From Alphaproteobacteria bacterium (lineage in GTDB: Bacteria > Pseudomonadota > Alphaproteobacteria > SHWA01), in NCBI GenBank assembly GCA_009693995.1, contig SHWA01000005.1, positions 1 to 54,990 of the forward strand: 54,990 nucleotides of DNA, written 5' to 3'. This document shows positions 4,290-20,211 of this stretch, one piece after another; position 1 is the stretch's first letter, and each line of letters starts with the position of its first letter. The notes under the pieces were generated by a model. It saw only the letters and a program-made list of their open reading frames with translations, searched no databases and was not told the DNA's origin. The position numbers were made by a program, and so were the translations under genes.

Positions 4290-5444
4290 ATGAAGATCAC
4301 CCGAATCGAAGCGATTCCCTACCGCCTGCCGGTCCGCCGCAACTTCACATGGGCCGGCTCACAACAGGCGCTGGGCAGCTTCGTCATGGTGCGGATCGAG
4401 ACCGATGCCGCCCTGATCGGTTACGGCGAAGCGATTGCGCTTCCCGACTGGGGCGGCGACTGGGGCCGCAAGGGCGGCGAGACCCCCGGCACCGTAATCG
4501 AGCTGGTGCGCACGCTGTTGGGGCCGGCCCTGATCGGCCACGACCCGACGGAGATCGAGCGCGCGCACGCCACCATGGACGGGCTCCTGCGCGGCAACAC
4601 ATACGCCAAGGCGGCGATCGACATGGCACTCCACGACCTCTGGGGCAAGGCGGTTGGACTGCCGGTGCACAAGCTGCTCGGTGGCACCGTGCGCGACGGC
4701 GTGCGCATCGCCCACATGGTCGGCCTGATGCCCGAGCGCGAGGCGATCGAGGAGGCGACTGCCGCGGTCAAGGACGGCGTCACCGCCCTCCAGATCAAGG
4801 GCGGCGTCGAGCCCGAGCGCGACATCCGCCTGGTCAAGGCGCTGCGCCAGGCCCTCGGGCCGGACGTGTTCCTGCGCCTCGACGCCAACCAGGGCTACCG
4901 CCGCGCCAAGCGGGCGCTCGGCGTCCTCGCCAAGATCGGCCCCGGCGTGATCGACATGCTGGAGCAGCCGGTGATGGGCCACGACGAGATGGCGGCGGTG
5001 ACCGCGGCGGCTTCGGTGCCGGTGATCGCCGACGAGAGCTGCTGGGATCCGCGCGACGCCCTGGAGCTGGTCCAGGCGCGGGCGGCGGATGCGATCTCGA
5101 TCTATCTCGCCAAGGCCGGCGGCATCGCCAAGGCGCGCCGGGTGGCGGCGATCGCCGAGGCGGGGGGGCTCACCTGCGACGTGAACGGCTCGATCGAATC
5201 GGGCATCGGCAACGCCGCCAACGTGCAGTTCGCCCTGGCGACGCCGGTCGCGGTGACGCCCTCGGTGATTCCCATCACGGCCCCGGCCGGCACCCACCCC
5301 AACGCCGTCGGCGGCCACTATTTCGAGGACGACATCGTGACCGAGCCCTTCGCCGTCGCCGGCGGCATGATCCTTCCCCTCACCCGGCCCGGCCTCGGCG
5401 TCGAGGTGGACGAGAAGAAGCTCGCCAAGTACCGCCTCGATTGA
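4290..5444 (+). CDS. mandelate racemase/muconate lactonizing enzyme family (enolase superfamily)
   Basis: MKITRIEAIPYRLPV...; ALQIKGGVEPERDIRLVKALRQALGPDVFLRLDANQGY; MLEQPV; VIADES. Confidence 0.9.
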   Translation: MKITRIEAIPYRLPVRRNFTWAGSQQALGSFVMVRIETDAALIGYGEAIALPDWGGDWGRKGGETPGTVIELVRTLLGPALIGHDPTEIERAHATMDGLLRGNTYAKAAIDMALHDLWGKAVGLPVHKLLGGTVRDGVRIAHMVGLMPEREAIEEATAAVKDGVTALQIKGGVEPERDIRLVKALRQALGPDVFLRLDANQGYRRAKRALGVLAKIGPGVIDMLEQPVMGHDEMAAVTAAASVPVIADESCWDPRDALELVQARAADAISIYLAKAGGIAKARRVAAIAEAGGLTCDVNGSIESGIGNAANVQFALATPVAVTPSVIPITAPAGTHPNAVGGHYFEDDIVTEPFAVAGGMILPLTRPGLGVEVDEKKLAKYRLD

Positions 5445-5698: not shown

Positions 5699-6289
5699 TC
5701 AGCCGATTATGTGGTGGCGTCCGACCGCAGTCACGGTCGACGCCTGGGGGCCTTTCTCCGACTCGCCCTCCGCCTCGACGAAGCGCACCTCGGCACCAAC
5801 GGCGAGCGCGGTGAAGCCGTCGTTGGTCACGCTGTTGCGATGGAAGTAGACCTCGCGGCCGTCGGAAGTGGTGATGAAGCCGTAGTCGGGAAACAGGCGC
5901 GCGACTTGGCCGTGGGGCGGCACCGTGTGGGTCTTGACCTCGCCCCGACCCCGGCGCGCGTGGTCCTCCAGCATGCGCCCGGCGGCGGCGAAGGCGTCAC
6001 GCAGCGCCACCTTGATGTCGGCGTGCTCGGGGTTGTGGCGTCCCTTGTGCGAGACCACGATCTCGCGCCCCGGCACAGCCATCTCGATGCGCACCGCATA
6101 GAGCTTGCCCTTGAGCTGGTGCTGGTGCGGCGCCTCGATCACCACGCGCGTACTGACAATGCGGTCGAAGAACAGCTTTAGCTTGGCGAACCGGTCGCGC
6201 ACGTCGGCCTCGATCGCGGGCGAATGGCCCATCTGGTGGAAGGCGATGTGGAGTTTGGTCTGCATTCGTGTGCCTCTCGGTTGCGTCAT
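5699..6289 (-). CDS. HPF/RaiA (S30AE) ribosome-associated domain fused to C-terminal cold-shock domain
   Basis: N-terminal MQTKLHIAFHQMGHSPAIEADVRDRFAKLKLFFDRI (S30AE-like); C-terminal GQVARLFPDYGFITTSDGREVYFHRNSV...GAEVRFVEAEGEKGPQAS-type cold-shock fold; ATGA overlap with rtcB stop. Confidence 0.85.
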   Translation of the reverse strand: MTQPRGTRMQTKLHIAFHQMGHSPAIEADVRDRFAKLKLFFDRIVSTRVVIEAPHQHQLKGKLYAVRIEMAVPGREIVVSHKGRHNPEHADIKVALRDAFAAAGRMLEDHARRGRGEVKTHTVPPHGQVARLFPDYGFITTSDGREVYFHRNSVTNDGFTALAVGAEVRFVEAEGESEKGPQASTVTAVGRHHIIG

Positions 6290-7716
6290 CCCTTGACGCT
6301 GATGAGTGGAGCGAGCCGGGCGACCCGGCGGGCGAGCCCCGCGCGTTCGGCGGCCAGCACCACCGCGCTCACGTCCTTGTAGGCGCCGGGCGCCTCCTCG
6401 GCGATGCCGCGCCAGGACGGGCTGCGGACCAGGGTACCGAGGCGGGCGAGCGCCTCTGCCACCGCGCGCCCCTGGAATTGGCGGGTGGCGGCGTGGCGGC
6501 TGAGCGCGCGGCCGGCGCCATGGCAGGCGGAACCGAAGGCCTTCGCCTCCCCGTCCGCGGTACCGACCAGCACGTAGGACGCCGTGCCCATGCTGCCGCC
6601 GATCAGCACCGGCTGGCCGGTCGCGCGCAAGCGCTCGGGCAGGTCGGGATGGCCGGGACCAAGCGCCCGCGTCGCACCCTTGCGGTGGACGTGGAGCGCT
6701 CGCGACACGCCGTCCACCACATGGGTCTCGGCGCGGAGGGTGTTGTGGGATACGTCGTAGAGCAGGTCGAGGCGCGCCTCGGGGAGATGGTGGCGGAACA
6801 CCTTGCGGGTCAGGTGGGTGAGAATCTGGCGGTTGGCCAGGGCGCAGTTGATCGCCGCCCGCATGGCACCGAGATAGCGCCGGCCGAGATCGGAGTCGAT
6901 CGGCGCGCAGGCGAGCTCGCGGTCGGGCAGATGGATGCCATGACCCGGCGCCGCGACCGCCATGTCGCGCAGGAACTCGGCGCCGATCTGGTGGCCGAGG
7001 CCGCGCGAGCCGCAGTGGATGGTGACCACCACCTCGCCCTGGCGCAAGCCGAAGGCGGTGGCGGTGGCAGAGTCGAACACCTCGGTGATCGCCTGCACCT
7101 CGAGGTAATGGTTGCCTGATCCGAGCGTGCCCATCTCGTCCCGCTGCCGCCGCTTGGCCCGATCGGAGACCTGGTCGGGCCGGGCGTCGGCGACGCAGCC
7201 GCCGTCCTCGATCCGCGTCAGGTCGTCGGCATCGCCGTACCCTTCCCCGACCGCCCAGCGCGCCCCGCCGGCCAGCATGGCGTCCGTGGTCGGGGCGTCC
7301 AAGCGCAGCCGGCCGGTGGAACCGACGCCGGCCGGGATCGTGCGCGCGAGATCGTCCGCCAGCTTGTGCTGAACCGCCATGACATCGGCCAGCCTGAGGC
7401 CGCTCAGCATGGTGCGCACGCCGCAGGAGATGTCGAACCCGACTCCACCGGCGGAGACCACGCCGCCCGCTCCTGCGTCGAATGCCGCCACCCCGCCGAT
7501 GGGAAAGCCGTAGCCCCAGTGCGCGTCGGGCATGGCATAGGCGGCGCGCACGATCCCGGGCAGGGTGGCGACGTTGGTCAACTGCTGGAACACCTTGTCA
7601 TCCATGGCGCCGATCAGGGCCGCGTCGGCGAAGATCACGGCCGGCACGCGCATGGCACCGGTCGGCGCCACCCGCCACGCGCAAGGACCGATCTGTTCGA
7701 ACCGACCGAGGTCCAC
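6286..7716 (-). CDS. rtcB: RtcB RNA ligase (tRNA-splicing ligase/RNA repair)
   Basis: Conserved VSAGGVGFDISCGVRTML, LGSGNHYLEVQ, IHCGSRGLGHQIG, GSMGTASYVL, CHGAGRALSR; likely GTG start at 7716 (the 618 aa ORF is over-extended upstream). Confidence 0.93.
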   Translation of the reverse strand: MDLGRFEQIGPCAWRVAPTGAMRVPAVIFADAALIGAMDDKVFQQLTNVATLPGIVRAAYAMPDAHWGYGFPIGGVAAFDAGAGGVVSAGGVGFDISCGVRTMLSGLRLADVMAVQHKLADDLARTIPAGVGSTGRLRLDAPTTDAMLAGGARWAVGEGYGDADDLTRIEDGGCVADARPDQVSDRAKRRQRDEMGTLGSGNHYLEVQAITEVFDSATATAFGLRQGEVVVTIHCGSRGLGHQIGAEFLRDMAVAAPGHGIHLPDRELACAPIDSDLGRRYLGAMRAAINCALANRQILTHLTRKVFRHHLPEARLDLLYDVSHNTLRAETHVVDGVSRALHVHRKGATRALGPGHPDLPERLRATGQPVLIGGSMGTASYVLVGTADGEAKAFGSACHGAGRALSRHAATRQFQGRAVAEALARLGTLVRSPSWRGIAEEAPGAYKDVSAVVLAAERAGLARRVARLAPLISVKG

Positions 7717-7733
7717 CGCCCGTCCACTCCCGC

Positions 7734-8162
7734 CTAGACGTCGACCACGCAGGCCGCGCGCCACAACCCGTCGGGACCGAGCGCGACGCTGAGCGCCGTC
7801 AAGGTCGCGCCCTTCACCTCGGCGGCCGGCTGGTGCCGCACCGGATCGACCGCCTCGCCCCACGCCTCGGCCGTAAGCCGGCTGCCGTCGATGTGCACCC
7901 GAAACCGGCCGAAGATCAGGTTCCGGACTCCCATTTCGTAGACGATGGTATTCAGCCACTCCACCAACAGGTACTCGAGGTCGGGTGCCGCGCACTGCAT
8001 CATCACCCGGACTTGGCCGCGGACCGTGGCGGGGTCGGCAATCACGGCGACCAGGGCGAGGGCGGCCTGCTCGAACGCCGCCGCCACCGTCCGCCCCACA
8101 CCACGGACTCCCATATCGGCATCGTGCGCGAAATGCTGCCACTGCTCCGTGCTCACACCCAT
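7734..8162 (-). CDS. archease
   Basis: MGVSTEQWQHFAHDADMGVRGVGRTVAAAFEQAALALVAVI...LLVEWLNTIVYEM...EAWGEAVDPVRHQPAAEVKGATLTAL; directly upstream of rtcB; alternative start at 8183. Confidence 0.92.
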   Translation of the reverse strand: MGVSTEQWQHFAHDADMGVRGVGRTVAAAFEQAALALVAVIADPATVRGQVRVMMQCAAPDLEYLLVEWLNTIVYEMGVRNLIFGRFRVHIDGSRLTAEAWGEAVDPVRHQPAAEVKGATLTALSVALGPDGLWRAACVVDV

Positions 8163-8207
8163 CGCGTCCTCATTTGGAATCATTCGCACCGATGCGCGCC
8201 GGCGATG

Positions 8208-8289: not shown

Positions 8290-8688
8290 ATGCTCACGAT
8301 CTCGCCCGAGAAGGCGTTCTTCATCCTGATGAAGGCGCGCGAGTTCGACGCCAAGGTCGAACCCGACGATCCGGAGTCTGGCTCCAACCCGAGCGACGAC
8401 AAAGGGGTCGCCATCCTGGAGGACTTTGCCGACGACCCGACCTACCAGGAACTGACCGATGCGCTGAAATCGCTCAACGAGGACGAGTTGACCGATCTTT
8501 TGGCACTCGCTTGGCTGGGGCGCGGCGACGTGGAAACCTGGGACCAGGCGGTCGCCCAAGCGCGCGGCGCGCAGGACGCCAATGCCGCGCGCTATCTGGT
8601 CGGCACGCCACTGCTCAGCGACTATCTGGAGAACGGACTCAGCGAGCTCGGCTATTCCCTCGAGGACTACGAGCTCGGGCGGCTGTGA
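8290..8688 (+). CDS. DUF3775 domain-containing protein
   Basis: MLTISPEKAFFILMKAREFDAKV...DDPTYQELTDALKSLNEDELTDLLALAWLGRGD. Confidence 0.8.
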   Translation: MLTISPEKAFFILMKAREFDAKVEPDDPESGSNPSDDKGVAILEDFADDPTYQELTDALKSLNEDELTDLLALAWLGRGDVETWDQAVAQARGAQDANAARYLVGTPLLSDYLENGLSELGYSLEDYELGRL

Positions 8689-8708: not shown

Positions 8709-8803
8709 GAAAAAAAGGCCGGGCGTACCTGCCCGGCCAATTTGTCAACAGAGAGGCGAACGGATAGGAGTTCGCGGTAGGTATCCCTCTCTAAAGCAAG
8801 CGC
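8709..8803 (-). ncRNA. candidate intergenic sRNA (minus strand) with Rho-independent terminator
   Basis: Minus strand: AGAGAG-GGATACCTACC-GCGAAC-TCCTATCC-GTTCGC-CTCTCT (nested 6+6 bp stems, CU-rich loop), then GTTGACAAATT, then GGCCGGGC-AGGTAC-GCCCGGCC-TTTTTTT; 5' end is a guess. Confidence 0.5.
8710..8738 (-). terminator. Rho-independent terminator
   Basis: Perfect 8 bp stem GGCCGGGC/GCCCGGCC (8717-8738) followed on the minus strand by seven T (8716-8710); plus side has only AATTT. Confidence 0.75.
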
Positions 8804-8833
8804 CGGGCCAGAATCGGAAATTCCGCAGAATTC

Positions 8834-8847
8834 TTGAGTTTTCTCAA
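8834..8847. promoter_or_regulatory. FNR/CRP-superfamily-like dyad TTGAGTTTTCTCAA
   Basis: Perfect TTGAG-N4-CTCAA palindrome in the intergenic region upstream of hemN, a classic FNR-family target. Confidence 0.6.
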
Positions 8848-8931
8848 TATGTTAAGGTTAATGTGCACAGTCCGTTGTAAGCCCTATCGACAGTCAGGGC
8901 CGGTACACCGGGCAGCGGAGAGAGGTGCCGA

Positions 8932-10097
8932 GTGATGGACCCGGCGCTGGTCACCCGCTTCGGTGACGCGCGCATCCCGCGCTACACCAGCTATCCGACC
9001 GCGCCCCATTTCCGCGCGCCTTTCACCGACCGGGACCTGCGCGCTCCTCGGCGTGGTGGAGGAACGGGCGCCGCTCTCGCTCTACCTTCACATCCCCTTC
9101 TGCGCCAGCCTCTGCTGGTTCTGCGGCTGCCACATGCGGGTGGTCAGGAGCGACGCCGCCATCGATGCCTACGTCGGGGCACTGGTCGCCGAGATCGGCC
9201 TGGTGGCGGCGGCGCTGCCGCACCGCGCGCGCATCAGCCATCTGCACTTCGGCGGCGGCACGCCGACCCATGTCGGCCCCGACCGCTTCCGCCGGATCAT
9301 GGCAAGCATCGGCCGCGCGTTCGATTTCGCACCCGAGGCCGAACGTGCCGTCGAGGTGGACCCCCGCACCCTGGATACGCCCATGATCGAGGCGCTGGCG
9401 GCGCACGGCGTCAATCGCGCCAGCCTCGGCGTGCAATCGCTCGACCTCCGCGTGCAGCGGGCGGTCAACCGGGTCCAGACCATGGCGGCGACCGAGGCCG
9501 CCATCACATCCTTGCGCGCTGCCGGAGACGACCGACCGCCTCGCCCGGTATCAGGCCACCGCGGGCCGGCTGGAGCGAGCCGGCTACCTGCCCATCGGCC
9601 TCGACCACTTCGCGCTGACCACCGACCCCCTGGCGCGGGCGTCGTCGGCCGGGCGGTTCCGGCGCAACTTCCAGGGCTACACTTCCGATTCGGCGACGAC
9701 GCTGATCGGCCTCGGTGCCTCGGCGATCGGCAGCTTCGACCACGCCTATGTGCAGAACACGACCGACATCAACCAATGGCGCAGCCGTGTCCTTTCGGGA
9801 CAGTTCGCGGTCCAGCGCGGCATCCGCCTCGACGCCGAGGACCGCGCCCGGCGCGCGCTGATCGAGCGGATCATGTGCGATCTGACCGTGGACGTGGCCG
9901 CCGTGGCCGCGCCCTTCGGCTTCACGGCGGCCGACTTCACTACCGCGCTCCTGGCGATCGAACGCGACGGGCTGGCACGGGTGGATGGTACCCGGGTCAC
10001 GCTTGCGCCTGCCTTCCGCCCCTTCCTGCGCACCGTCGCGGCCGCCTTCGACACCTATCTGTCGCCAGAGGGCGGCCGGCACGCCCGCGCCGTCTAA
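8932..10097 (+). pseudogene. hemN: oxygen-independent coproporphyrinogen III dehydrogenase, disrupted (two frame changes and internal deletion)
   Basis: Frame 1 N-term ALVTRFGDARIPRYTSYPTAPHF; frame 2 RAPLSLYLHIPFCASLCWFCGCH...VNRVQTMAATEAAITSLRAAG; frame 3 ETTDRLARYQATAGRLERAGYLPIGLDHFAL...FRRNFQGYTSDSATTLIGLGASAIGSFDHAYVQN...; DLIYGLP region absent. Confidence 0.85.
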
Positions 10098-17014: not shown

Positions 17015-17620
17015 TCACGCCTCCGCATCCGCCAGCGGCGCTGGAAACCGGCAATTGCCCGCGAGCAGCGCCGCCACCGGTTCCGCCGCCAACAGCGCCC
17101 GCGCCCTCCTGGCATAGCCCGCCACGGCGAACGCCTGGGGCCCCGGCGGTGAGGGGTCGCCGTAAAGATTGCGCTGCAACGCCGTGGCGAGCGCGGTGTC
17201 GTCCGCGGCGATCGCCGCCAGGTACGCGCCACGGCGGCCATTGAAGCCGGCGGCCATCGCCTTCACCTGCTTGCCGACCCCGAGATCGCCCACACCGGCC
17301 TCGCGCACCGAGCGGTCCATGTCGTCGAACATCAGGTCGAGCAAGGCCTGGCCGGTTGCCTGCGCGACCGGCCCGGCGCTCTGCAACCGGTCCAGCACCA
17401 GGAAGACATGCAGCGCCAGGCAGTCGAAGCGGCCGTTCCAGGTGTCGGGAACCGAAAGGGCGGCGAAAAACGCCGGCGCACGGGCCTGGGTCAGAATCTG
17501 CCCGTAGAGCCCTTCCGCCGCCGCCCGAGCCGGGTTGCGCCGCCACCAAGCCGCCCCCGCCACGCCGCCTCCGTTGACAGTACCTTGCGAACGCCCCCAT
17601 GTTACAAGATGACCGACCAC
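17015..17620 (-). CDS. ubiquinol-cytochrome c chaperone family protein
   Basis: LYGQILTQARAPAFFAALSVPDTWNGRFDCLALHVFLVLDRL...MFDDMDRSVREAGVGDLGVGKQVKAMAAGFNGR. Confidence 0.85.
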   Translation of the reverse strand: MVGHLVTWGRSQGTVNGGGVAGAAWWRRNPARAAAEGLYGQILTQARAPAFFAALSVPDTWNGRFDCLALHVFLVLDRLQSAGPVAQATGQALLDLMFDDMDRSVREAGVGDLGVGKQVKAMAAGFNGRRGAYLAAIAADDTALATALQRNLYGDPSPPGPQAFAVAGYARRARALLAAEPVAALLAGNCRFPAPLADAEA

Positions 17621-18132: not shown

Positions 18133-20211
18133 TCAGGCCGCCAGGACCGCCAGCAGCAAAAGCGCGACGATGTTGATGATCTTGATCATCGGGTTGACTG
18201 CCGGCCCGGCGGTGTCCTTGTAAGGATCTCCCACCGTGTCACCGGTGACGGCAGCCTTGTGGGCGTCCGACCCCTTGCCGCCGTGGTGCCCTTCCTCGAT
18301 CAGCTTCTTGGCATTGTCCCAGGCGCCGCCGCCAGAGGTCATGGAGACCGCGACGAACAGCCCCGTGACGATGGTGCCGAGCAGCATCGCGCCGAGGGTG
18401 GAGAAGGCGGCCGACTGCCCGGCGATGGCGGTGATCACGAAGTAGACCACGATGGGCGCCAGCACCGGCAGCAGCGAGGGGACGATCATCTCGCGGATCG
18501 CCGCCCGGGTCAGCAGGTCGACCGCCTTGCCGTACTCCGGCTTCGCCGTGCCCTCCATGATGCCCTTGATCTCGCGGAACTGGCGGCGCACCTCGACCAC
18601 CACCGCCCCGGCCGCGCGCCCGACCGCCCGCATGCCGAGGGCACCGAACAGGTAGGGCAGCATGCCGCCGAGAAAGAGCCCGACCACGACAAAGGGACTC
18701 TGCAACTGGAACGAGACCTTCAGGTTCGGGAAGTAGTGGGTGAGGTCCTCGGTATAGGCGGCGAACAGCACCAGCGCGGCGAGGCCGGCCGAGCCGATGG
18801 CATAGCCCTTGGTCACCGCCTTGGTGGTGTTGCCGACGGCGTCCAGCGCATCGGTCGTCTTGCGCACCGCCTTGTCGAGCCCCGCCATCTCGGCGATGCC
18901 GCCGGCGTTGTCGGTGACCGGGCCATAGGCGTCGAGGGCGACCACCATGCCGGCCAGCGCCAGCATGGTGGTGGCGGCGATGGCGATGCCGAACAGGCCG
19001 GCGTTGAGGTAGGCGACCAGGATGCCGGCCGAGATGATGAGTGCCGGCAGCGCCGTCGCCTCCATGGAGACGGCGAGGCCCTGGATGATATTGGTGGCAT
19101 GGCCGGTGGTGGAGGATTGGGCCACGCTCTTGACCGGGCGGTAGGCGGTGGAGGTGTAGTACTCCGTCACCCAGACCATGAGCCCGGTGACCACCAAGCC
19201 GACCAGGCCCGAATAGAACAGGTGCCGCCCGGTGAAGGTGAGGTCGCCGACCTTGAGCACGGTCGCGCTGCCGATCACCCACTCGATCAGCGGCCAGAGC
19301 GCGACCGCCGAGAGCACGCCGGTCGCCATCAGCCCCTTGTAGAGGGCGCCCATGATGTTCTGGCTGGCGCCGAGGCGCACGAAGTAGGTGCCGATCACCG
19401 ACGTGATGATGCACGCGCCGCCGATCACCAGCGGCAGCACCATGAGGCGCGACTGCACGTCGCCGGTGAAGAAGATTGCCGCCAGCAGCATGGTCGCGAC
19501 CACGGTGACGGCGTAGGTCTCGAACAGATCGGCCGCCATGCCGGCGCAGTCGCCGACGTTGTCGCCGACATTGTCCGCGATCACCGCCGGGTTGCGCGGG
19601 TCGTCCTCGGGGATGCCGGCCTCGATCTTGCCCACCAGGTCGGCGCCGACGTCAGCTCCCTTGGTGAAGATGCCGCCGCCGAGGCGCGCGAAGATGGAAA
19701 TCAGGGAGGCGCCGAAGCCGAGCGCGACCAAGGCCTCAAGCACCTGGCGCTGCAGCAGGTCCATGCCCATCAGGACGCCATAATAGACCGCTACCCCGAG
19801 CAGGCCGAGGCCGACCACCAGCATGCCGGTGACCGCGCCGGCCTGGAAGGCGATCGCGAGCGCGGGCTGCAGCCCACCCCGCGCCGCCTCGGCGGTGCGC
19901 ACGTTGGCGCGGACCGAGATGTACATGCCGATATAGCCGGCGGCGCCCGACAACACGGCGCCGATCACGAAGCCGATACCGACATAGCGGCCGAGCAGGA
20001 ACGTCAGCAACAGGCAGATCGCCACGCCGACGACGCCGATGGTCAGGTACTGGCGGTTGAGATAGGCCCCCGCGCCTTCCTGGATCGCGCCGGCGATCTC
20101 CTGCATCCGCGCCGAGCCGGGGCTGGCCGCGAGCACCACGCGGCTGGTCACCAGACCGTAGACCAACGCGACCACACCGCACACGGTGGCAAACATCAGA
20201 CCGGCGGACAT
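18133..20211 (-). CDS. hppA: membrane-bound H+-translocating pyrophosphatase, predicted K+-independent
   Basis: [74 protein letters not shown] (Lys at the K+-dependence position). Confidence 0.95.

Follow-up and report, generated by a model that had tools for sequence, protein, structure and literature searches.

A candidate sigma-54-dependent small RNA gene of the SorX/αR8 kind beside hemN in an alphaproteobacterial genome

SorX of Rhodobacter sphaeroides is a 75-nt RNA consisting of a 5′ hairpin, an open linker of 17 nt containing a CUCYCUGUUG core, and a G+C-rich terminator; it arises when RNase E cleaves the 3′ UTR of an OmpR-type gene (PMC6238624, PMC8625941). SorY is transcribed from a promoter of its own (PMC6238624) and resembles the RNA described here in linker and terminator. 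The αR8 sRNAs (MmgR, RF00519; SisA-D of Caulobacter) are also short, with a weak 5′ hairpin, an open anti-Shine-Dalgarno (anti-SD) core (CCUCCCU) and a terminator, and occur as several siblings per genome, each with a separate promoter. The four siblings SisA-D are transcribed from unrelated promoters and have in common a target-repressing anti-SD 10-mer (PMC12559287), and their anti-SD core binds targets as well as the sponge RNA CrfA on Hfq (PMC12559287). A single αR8 copy usually lies beside an N-formylglutamate amidohydrolase gene, extra siblings elsewhere being equally normal (PMC12559287). MmgR of Sinorhizobium is induced by NtrC, and both RpoD and RpoN are listed for it in a review table (PMC7143759); it is repressed by AniA/PhaR (PMC12542648).

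A candidate of comparable architecture was found in the 54,990-nt stretch of alphaproteobacterial DNA analyzed here (the window), on the minus strand between a DUF3775 protein gene and hemN. Its parts and its convergent neighbor are:

8290-8688, plus strand: gene for a DUF3775 protein (PF12616, E 1.2e-24), convergent with the RNA
8710-8784, minus strand: predicted sRNA of ~75 nt, from fold z and the SorX and R2 matches; start predicted, 12 nt past the GC of the −12 element
8756-8775, minus strand: 5′ hairpin GCGAAC-UCCUAUCC-GUUCGC, 6 bp with CU-rich loop, from inverted-repeat and fold analysis (arm GCGAAC at 8775-8770, loop TCCTATCC, arm GTTCGC at 8761-8756)
8739-8755, minus strand: open CU-rich linker of 17 nt, CUCUCUGUUGACAAAUU, from the alignments; likely base-pairing seed
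8710-8738, minus strand: Rho-independent terminator GGCCGGGC-AGGUAC-GCCCGGCC with seven U, G+C stem of 8 bp (arms GGCCGGGC at 8738-8731 and GCCCGGCC at 8724-8717; seven T at 8716-8710)
8792-8786 and 8756-8750, minus strand: AGAGAGG and CCTCTCT, arms of an outer stem proposed earlier, from the repeat list

The initial annotation had read this region as a set of nested stems, and all of the sequence elements it listed, including the seven T, an FNR/CRP-type dyad (8834-8847) and a GATTCT motif (8815-8810), were found in place. The inner hairpin and the terminator were borne out by the fold of the 76 nt from 8784 to 8709 (z = −5.2; reached by 0 of 200 shuffles). The outer stem is a different matter: its AGAGAGG arm lies between the sigma-54 promoter match described below and the predicted start (~8784), which means that this stem is probably absent from the RNA and that the CUCUCU stretch would be left open.

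Between 8600 and 9100 there were two terminator-like sites where 0.3 would be expected, and each lies on the minus strand. According to the list of open reading frames, there is no minus-strand gene upstream of the sRNA, hemN running the opposite way, and a terminator without such a gene indicates a stand-alone transcript starting somewhere between ~8935 and 8784. The locus might instead hold no sRNA at all and only a terminator for antisense or read-through transcripts, perhaps one acting bidirectionally for DUF3775. The stem does form on the plus strand too, but only on the minus strand does the U tract lie 3′ of it, no gene on that strand feeds into the terminator, and hairpin, core, linker length and promoter would be superfluous despite matching a known family, all of which makes this explanation very improbable.

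When the locus was compared with Rfam, as had been proposed initially, no family matched above its gathering score, but a clear sub-threshold match to SorX was obtained (RF02784; 31.1 bits, E 1.6e-5, gathering cut-off 46.6). The alignment spans the full length of the model (positions 1-73) with the same 17-nt linker and one core change, CUCUCU in the window versus CUCCCU in SorX, and the order of hairpin, 17-nt linker with CUCCCUGUUG, terminator and U run is present in the window RNA. SorY (RF02651) gave 18.1 bits (cut-off 111), and with the suhB model (RF00519) the window gave no match at E values up to 5. Other hallmarks of αR8 were also missing: the open 10-mer UUUCCUCCCU (as defined in PMC12559287) is replaced by CGCCUCUCUG, the neighbors are DUF3775 and hemN and not an N-formylglutamate amidohydrolase gene, and a PhaR/AniA-like box is not found upstream.

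Searching 296 alphaproteobacterial genomes with the SorX model revealed a recurring group of RNAs with an ACGUC-UCCCA-GACGU hairpin, a near-invariant CCUCCCUGUU core and a terminator. Its members match both SorX and suhB/MmgR (RF00519; 24-35 bits for the latter), mostly below threshold. From 28 alphaproteobacterial loci other than the window, whose sequence was left out, a model termed R2 was built, with the structure given by hand. Covariation within the family was pronounced in 54 distinct sequences, aligned by fitting to the R2 model itself: double changes occurred in 10 of the 12 pairs, a value as high was seen in 0 of 500 shuffles, and slid controls stayed near zero. In the window, the candidate RNA was the sole match to R2 (28.6 bits, E 6e-5; the whole-genome E is only 0.0026), whereas members outside the host genome scored between 36 and 86 bits. 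Linker and terminator account for most of this match; the layout is that of the group, but the sequence of the 5′ hairpin differs. At the alignment position of the CCUCCCUGUU core, the window copy carries CCUCUCUGUU, which is the linker CUCUCUGUUGACAAAUU preceded by the C that closes the stem and which departs from the family core by one C-to-U change (CCUCUCU in place of CCUCCCU). Judged by this conservation, the likely seed is the open linker CCUCUCUGUUG and not the UCCUAUCC loop alone; the CU-rich loop to which the initial annotation had assigned this role does exist. Owing to the outlying score and the core change, the RNA would not formally be filed under SorX or αR8; from its sequence, it looks like a diverged cousin of the αR8/MmgR and SorX kind. 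The original proposal of a stand-alone, probably trans-acting minus-strand sRNA with a CU-rich anti-SD stretch is supported, and the RNA resembles an experimentally known sRNA family.

The host genome contains three R2 copies, the other two being:

contig C87 of the host genome (G000), 19949-20022: sibling L135, next to an ABC-transporter-like operon and with the canonical core ACCUCCCUGU
contig C11 of the host genome (G000), 4983-5050: sibling L038, whose core reads GCUUCCCUGUUG and whose loop is rich in CUGUCCUCC; an acetylhomoserine-lyase-like gene lies downstream

Across the group, PhaR/AniA-like boxes (TTGC-N3-GCAA/G) lie within 250 nt upstream of 19 of 56 members, about one-third of the CCUCCCUGUU sRNAs (L132, L009, L014, L015, L024, L125, L126, L128 and others). 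The background is 5.5%, and this sixfold excess suggests PHB-linked control of CCUCCCUGUU sRNAs across the class. At some loci (L004, L007/L134, L027, L030), copies occur in tandem, a few hundred bases apart. Linkage of the sRNA to DUF3775 or to hemN was seen in none of the relatives examined. DUF3775 relatives in the scanned genome contigs share 49-59% identity. Adjacent to DUF3775 in the window are genes for the RNA ligase RtcB and its helper archease (6286-8171, minus strand), and one other genome (G229, locus L071) retains this trio.

Upstream of the RNA lies an element that had been overlooked:

8795-8810, minus strand: match to a sigma-54 −24/−12 promoter, TGGCCCG-GCGC-TTGCT, 11 of 12 consensus positions

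The promoter test identified TGGCCCGGCGCTTGCT, with the GG of the −24 element, the GC of the −12 element and the exact spacing between them (consensus TGGCACG-N4-TTGCW). The pattern TGGCNCGN4TTGCW has a single match in the 55-kb window, this one (0.07 expected), and a start set by it (~8784) would open a SorX-like RNA with the identical 17-nt linker. RpoN is encoded in the genome (PF04552, E 1.5e-64), as are five matches to the sigma-54 activator domain (PF00158). By eye, the list of inverted repeats contained no clear NtrC site upstream; a TGTGCACA palindrome lies at 8862-8869. The SisA-D siblings have unrelated promoters, and MmgR is induced by NtrC and listed with RpoD and RpoN; sigma-54 control of a single sibling agrees with this pattern.

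The RNA could belong to the same family and the sigma-54 match still be coincidental, transcription then starting from another type of promoter (e.g., one served by a stress sigma factor, like those of the Sor RNAs) or the RNA being released by processing. A looser pattern matched 7 times in the 2.28-Mb genome (reversed control, 2), and of the six sites other than this one, most lie within reading frames and are probably due to chance. In addition, a sigma-54 box was found in no other member of the sRNA group examined, and a combined pattern of box and core returned, from 395 genomes, only the window and four matches of chance-like appearance. SorX itself, moreover, is cut from a 3′ UTR (PMC6238624). 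Nevertheless, at the genome-wide density of matches, one on the correct strand and no more than 10 nt from the required position has an estimated chance of ~3e-5, no sigma-70 promoter-like site was found between 8600 and 9100, and there is no upstream minus-strand gene that could yield the RNA by processing; SorX derives from a longer transcript, whereas the window RNA stands alone behind its predicted promoter. Coincidence is, on balance, an unlikely explanation.

The remaining control element lies between the RNA and its divergent neighbor:

8834-8847, strand not assigned: TTGAG-TTTT-CTCAA, a dyad of FNR/CRP type attributed to the hemN promoter
8932-10097, plus strand: hemN, divergent from the RNA; its Radical_SAM and HemN_C matches do not share a frame

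In the assembly, hemN is broken by two or three frameshifts and spread over at least three frames (~9036, ~9530, before 9750), which reflects either decay of the gene or local assembly errors; genes nearby look intact. The dyad had been taken as a sign of an oxygen-responsive sRNA. FNR-type boxes, however, are a common feature upstream of hemN (17 of 29 relatives; background 8%), and no sRNA accompanies them at those relatives' loci. Because the boxes are frequent at hemN also where the sRNA is missing, the dyad is best read as a control site of hemN and not as one dedicated to the sRNA, although it may additionally affect the latter. Neither did the GATTCT motif retain the role of −10 element given to it: the first base of the sigma-54 −24 element falls within it, and a −10 function is improbable. 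The model implied by the initial annotation, a longer RNA that starts at 8799 or farther upstream, is activated by FNR and hides its seed in the outer AGAGAGG/CCTCTCT stem, draws on the dyad center being 41.5 bp upstream of ~8799 and on the perfect pairing of that stem. It is nonetheless improbable: hemN explains the dyad, the only −10 on offer is GATTCT, with no sigma-70-like promoter nearby, the outer stem would sequester the core, which in the family stays open between the two stems, and the longer RNA (8709-8803) folds less distinctively (z = −3.3 versus −5.2).

Taken together, we consider it probable, with moderate confidence, that an sRNA gene in its own right occupies the minus strand from 8784 to 8710, encoding a trans-acting, SorX/αR8-like RNA of ~75 nt with an anti-SD seed and transcribed by sigma-54 RNA polymerase. 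The structure, the family resemblance, the promoter match, the siblings and the presence of RpoN are computed directly; from them, we infer transcription, start site, activator, involvement of Hfq, targets, effect and physiological role. Sigma-54 RNA polymerase would probably transcribe the sRNA from the promoter at 8810-8795, starting at ~8784 and activated from farther upstream by an enhancer-binding protein (e.g., NtrC), and induction would probably occur upon nitrogen limitation or another sigma-54 signal. The sRNA, probably together with Hfq, would then pair through CCUCUCUGUUG, the UCCUAUCC loop, or both, with the start regions of mRNAs, which would block their translation. With it, the host genome would have at least three siblings that combine a common type of seed with separate promoters.

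Candidate targets were sought among 305 start regions from sample stretches of the host genome. On average, the core pairs with SD-like places better than do 99 of 100 shuffled versions, as expected of an anti-SD seed. The strongest pairing was computed for the FAD subunit of a molybdopterin dehydrogenase (−29.4 kcal/mol; frequency in random stretches 1e-4), followed by a ubiquinol-cytochrome c chaperone (window 17563-17015, minus strand; −27.6 kcal/mol, 3e-4). Shuffled cores often reach equally strong SD-like sites, and both genes are to be taken as leads only. The start region of the chaperone gene (17015-17563, minus strand) has long complementarity to the sRNA linker, GUCAAC...GGAGGCG, and is a possible target. 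The divergent neighbor also offers a pairing site:

8919-8925, plus strand: SD sequence of hemN, AGAGAGG, complementary to CCUCUCU of the sRNA (9 pairs, one of them G-U)

By pairing energy, hemN ranked 36th of 305, which is statistically unremarkable, and it was dropped as a special target. It is a distinctly speculative and very unlikely idea that the sigma-54-driven sibling, its seed changed from CCUCCCU to CCUCUCU, pairs with the SD sequence of the divergent, FNR-controlled hemN; if it were true, a single intergenic region would tie nitrogen status to anaerobic heme synthesis.

For the biology of the locus, the reading of the FNR box is corrected, in that it is assigned to hemN and not to the sRNA. 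For the family, in which the best-studied member, MmgR, couples carbon storage to nitrogen status, the window RNA adds a sibling with a direct, predicted sigma-54 promoter to a widespread group of alphaproteobacterial sRNAs. It suggests that one layout, re-wired through promoter exchange, is common to SorX, the αR8 sRNAs and the class-wide CCUCCCUGUU group.
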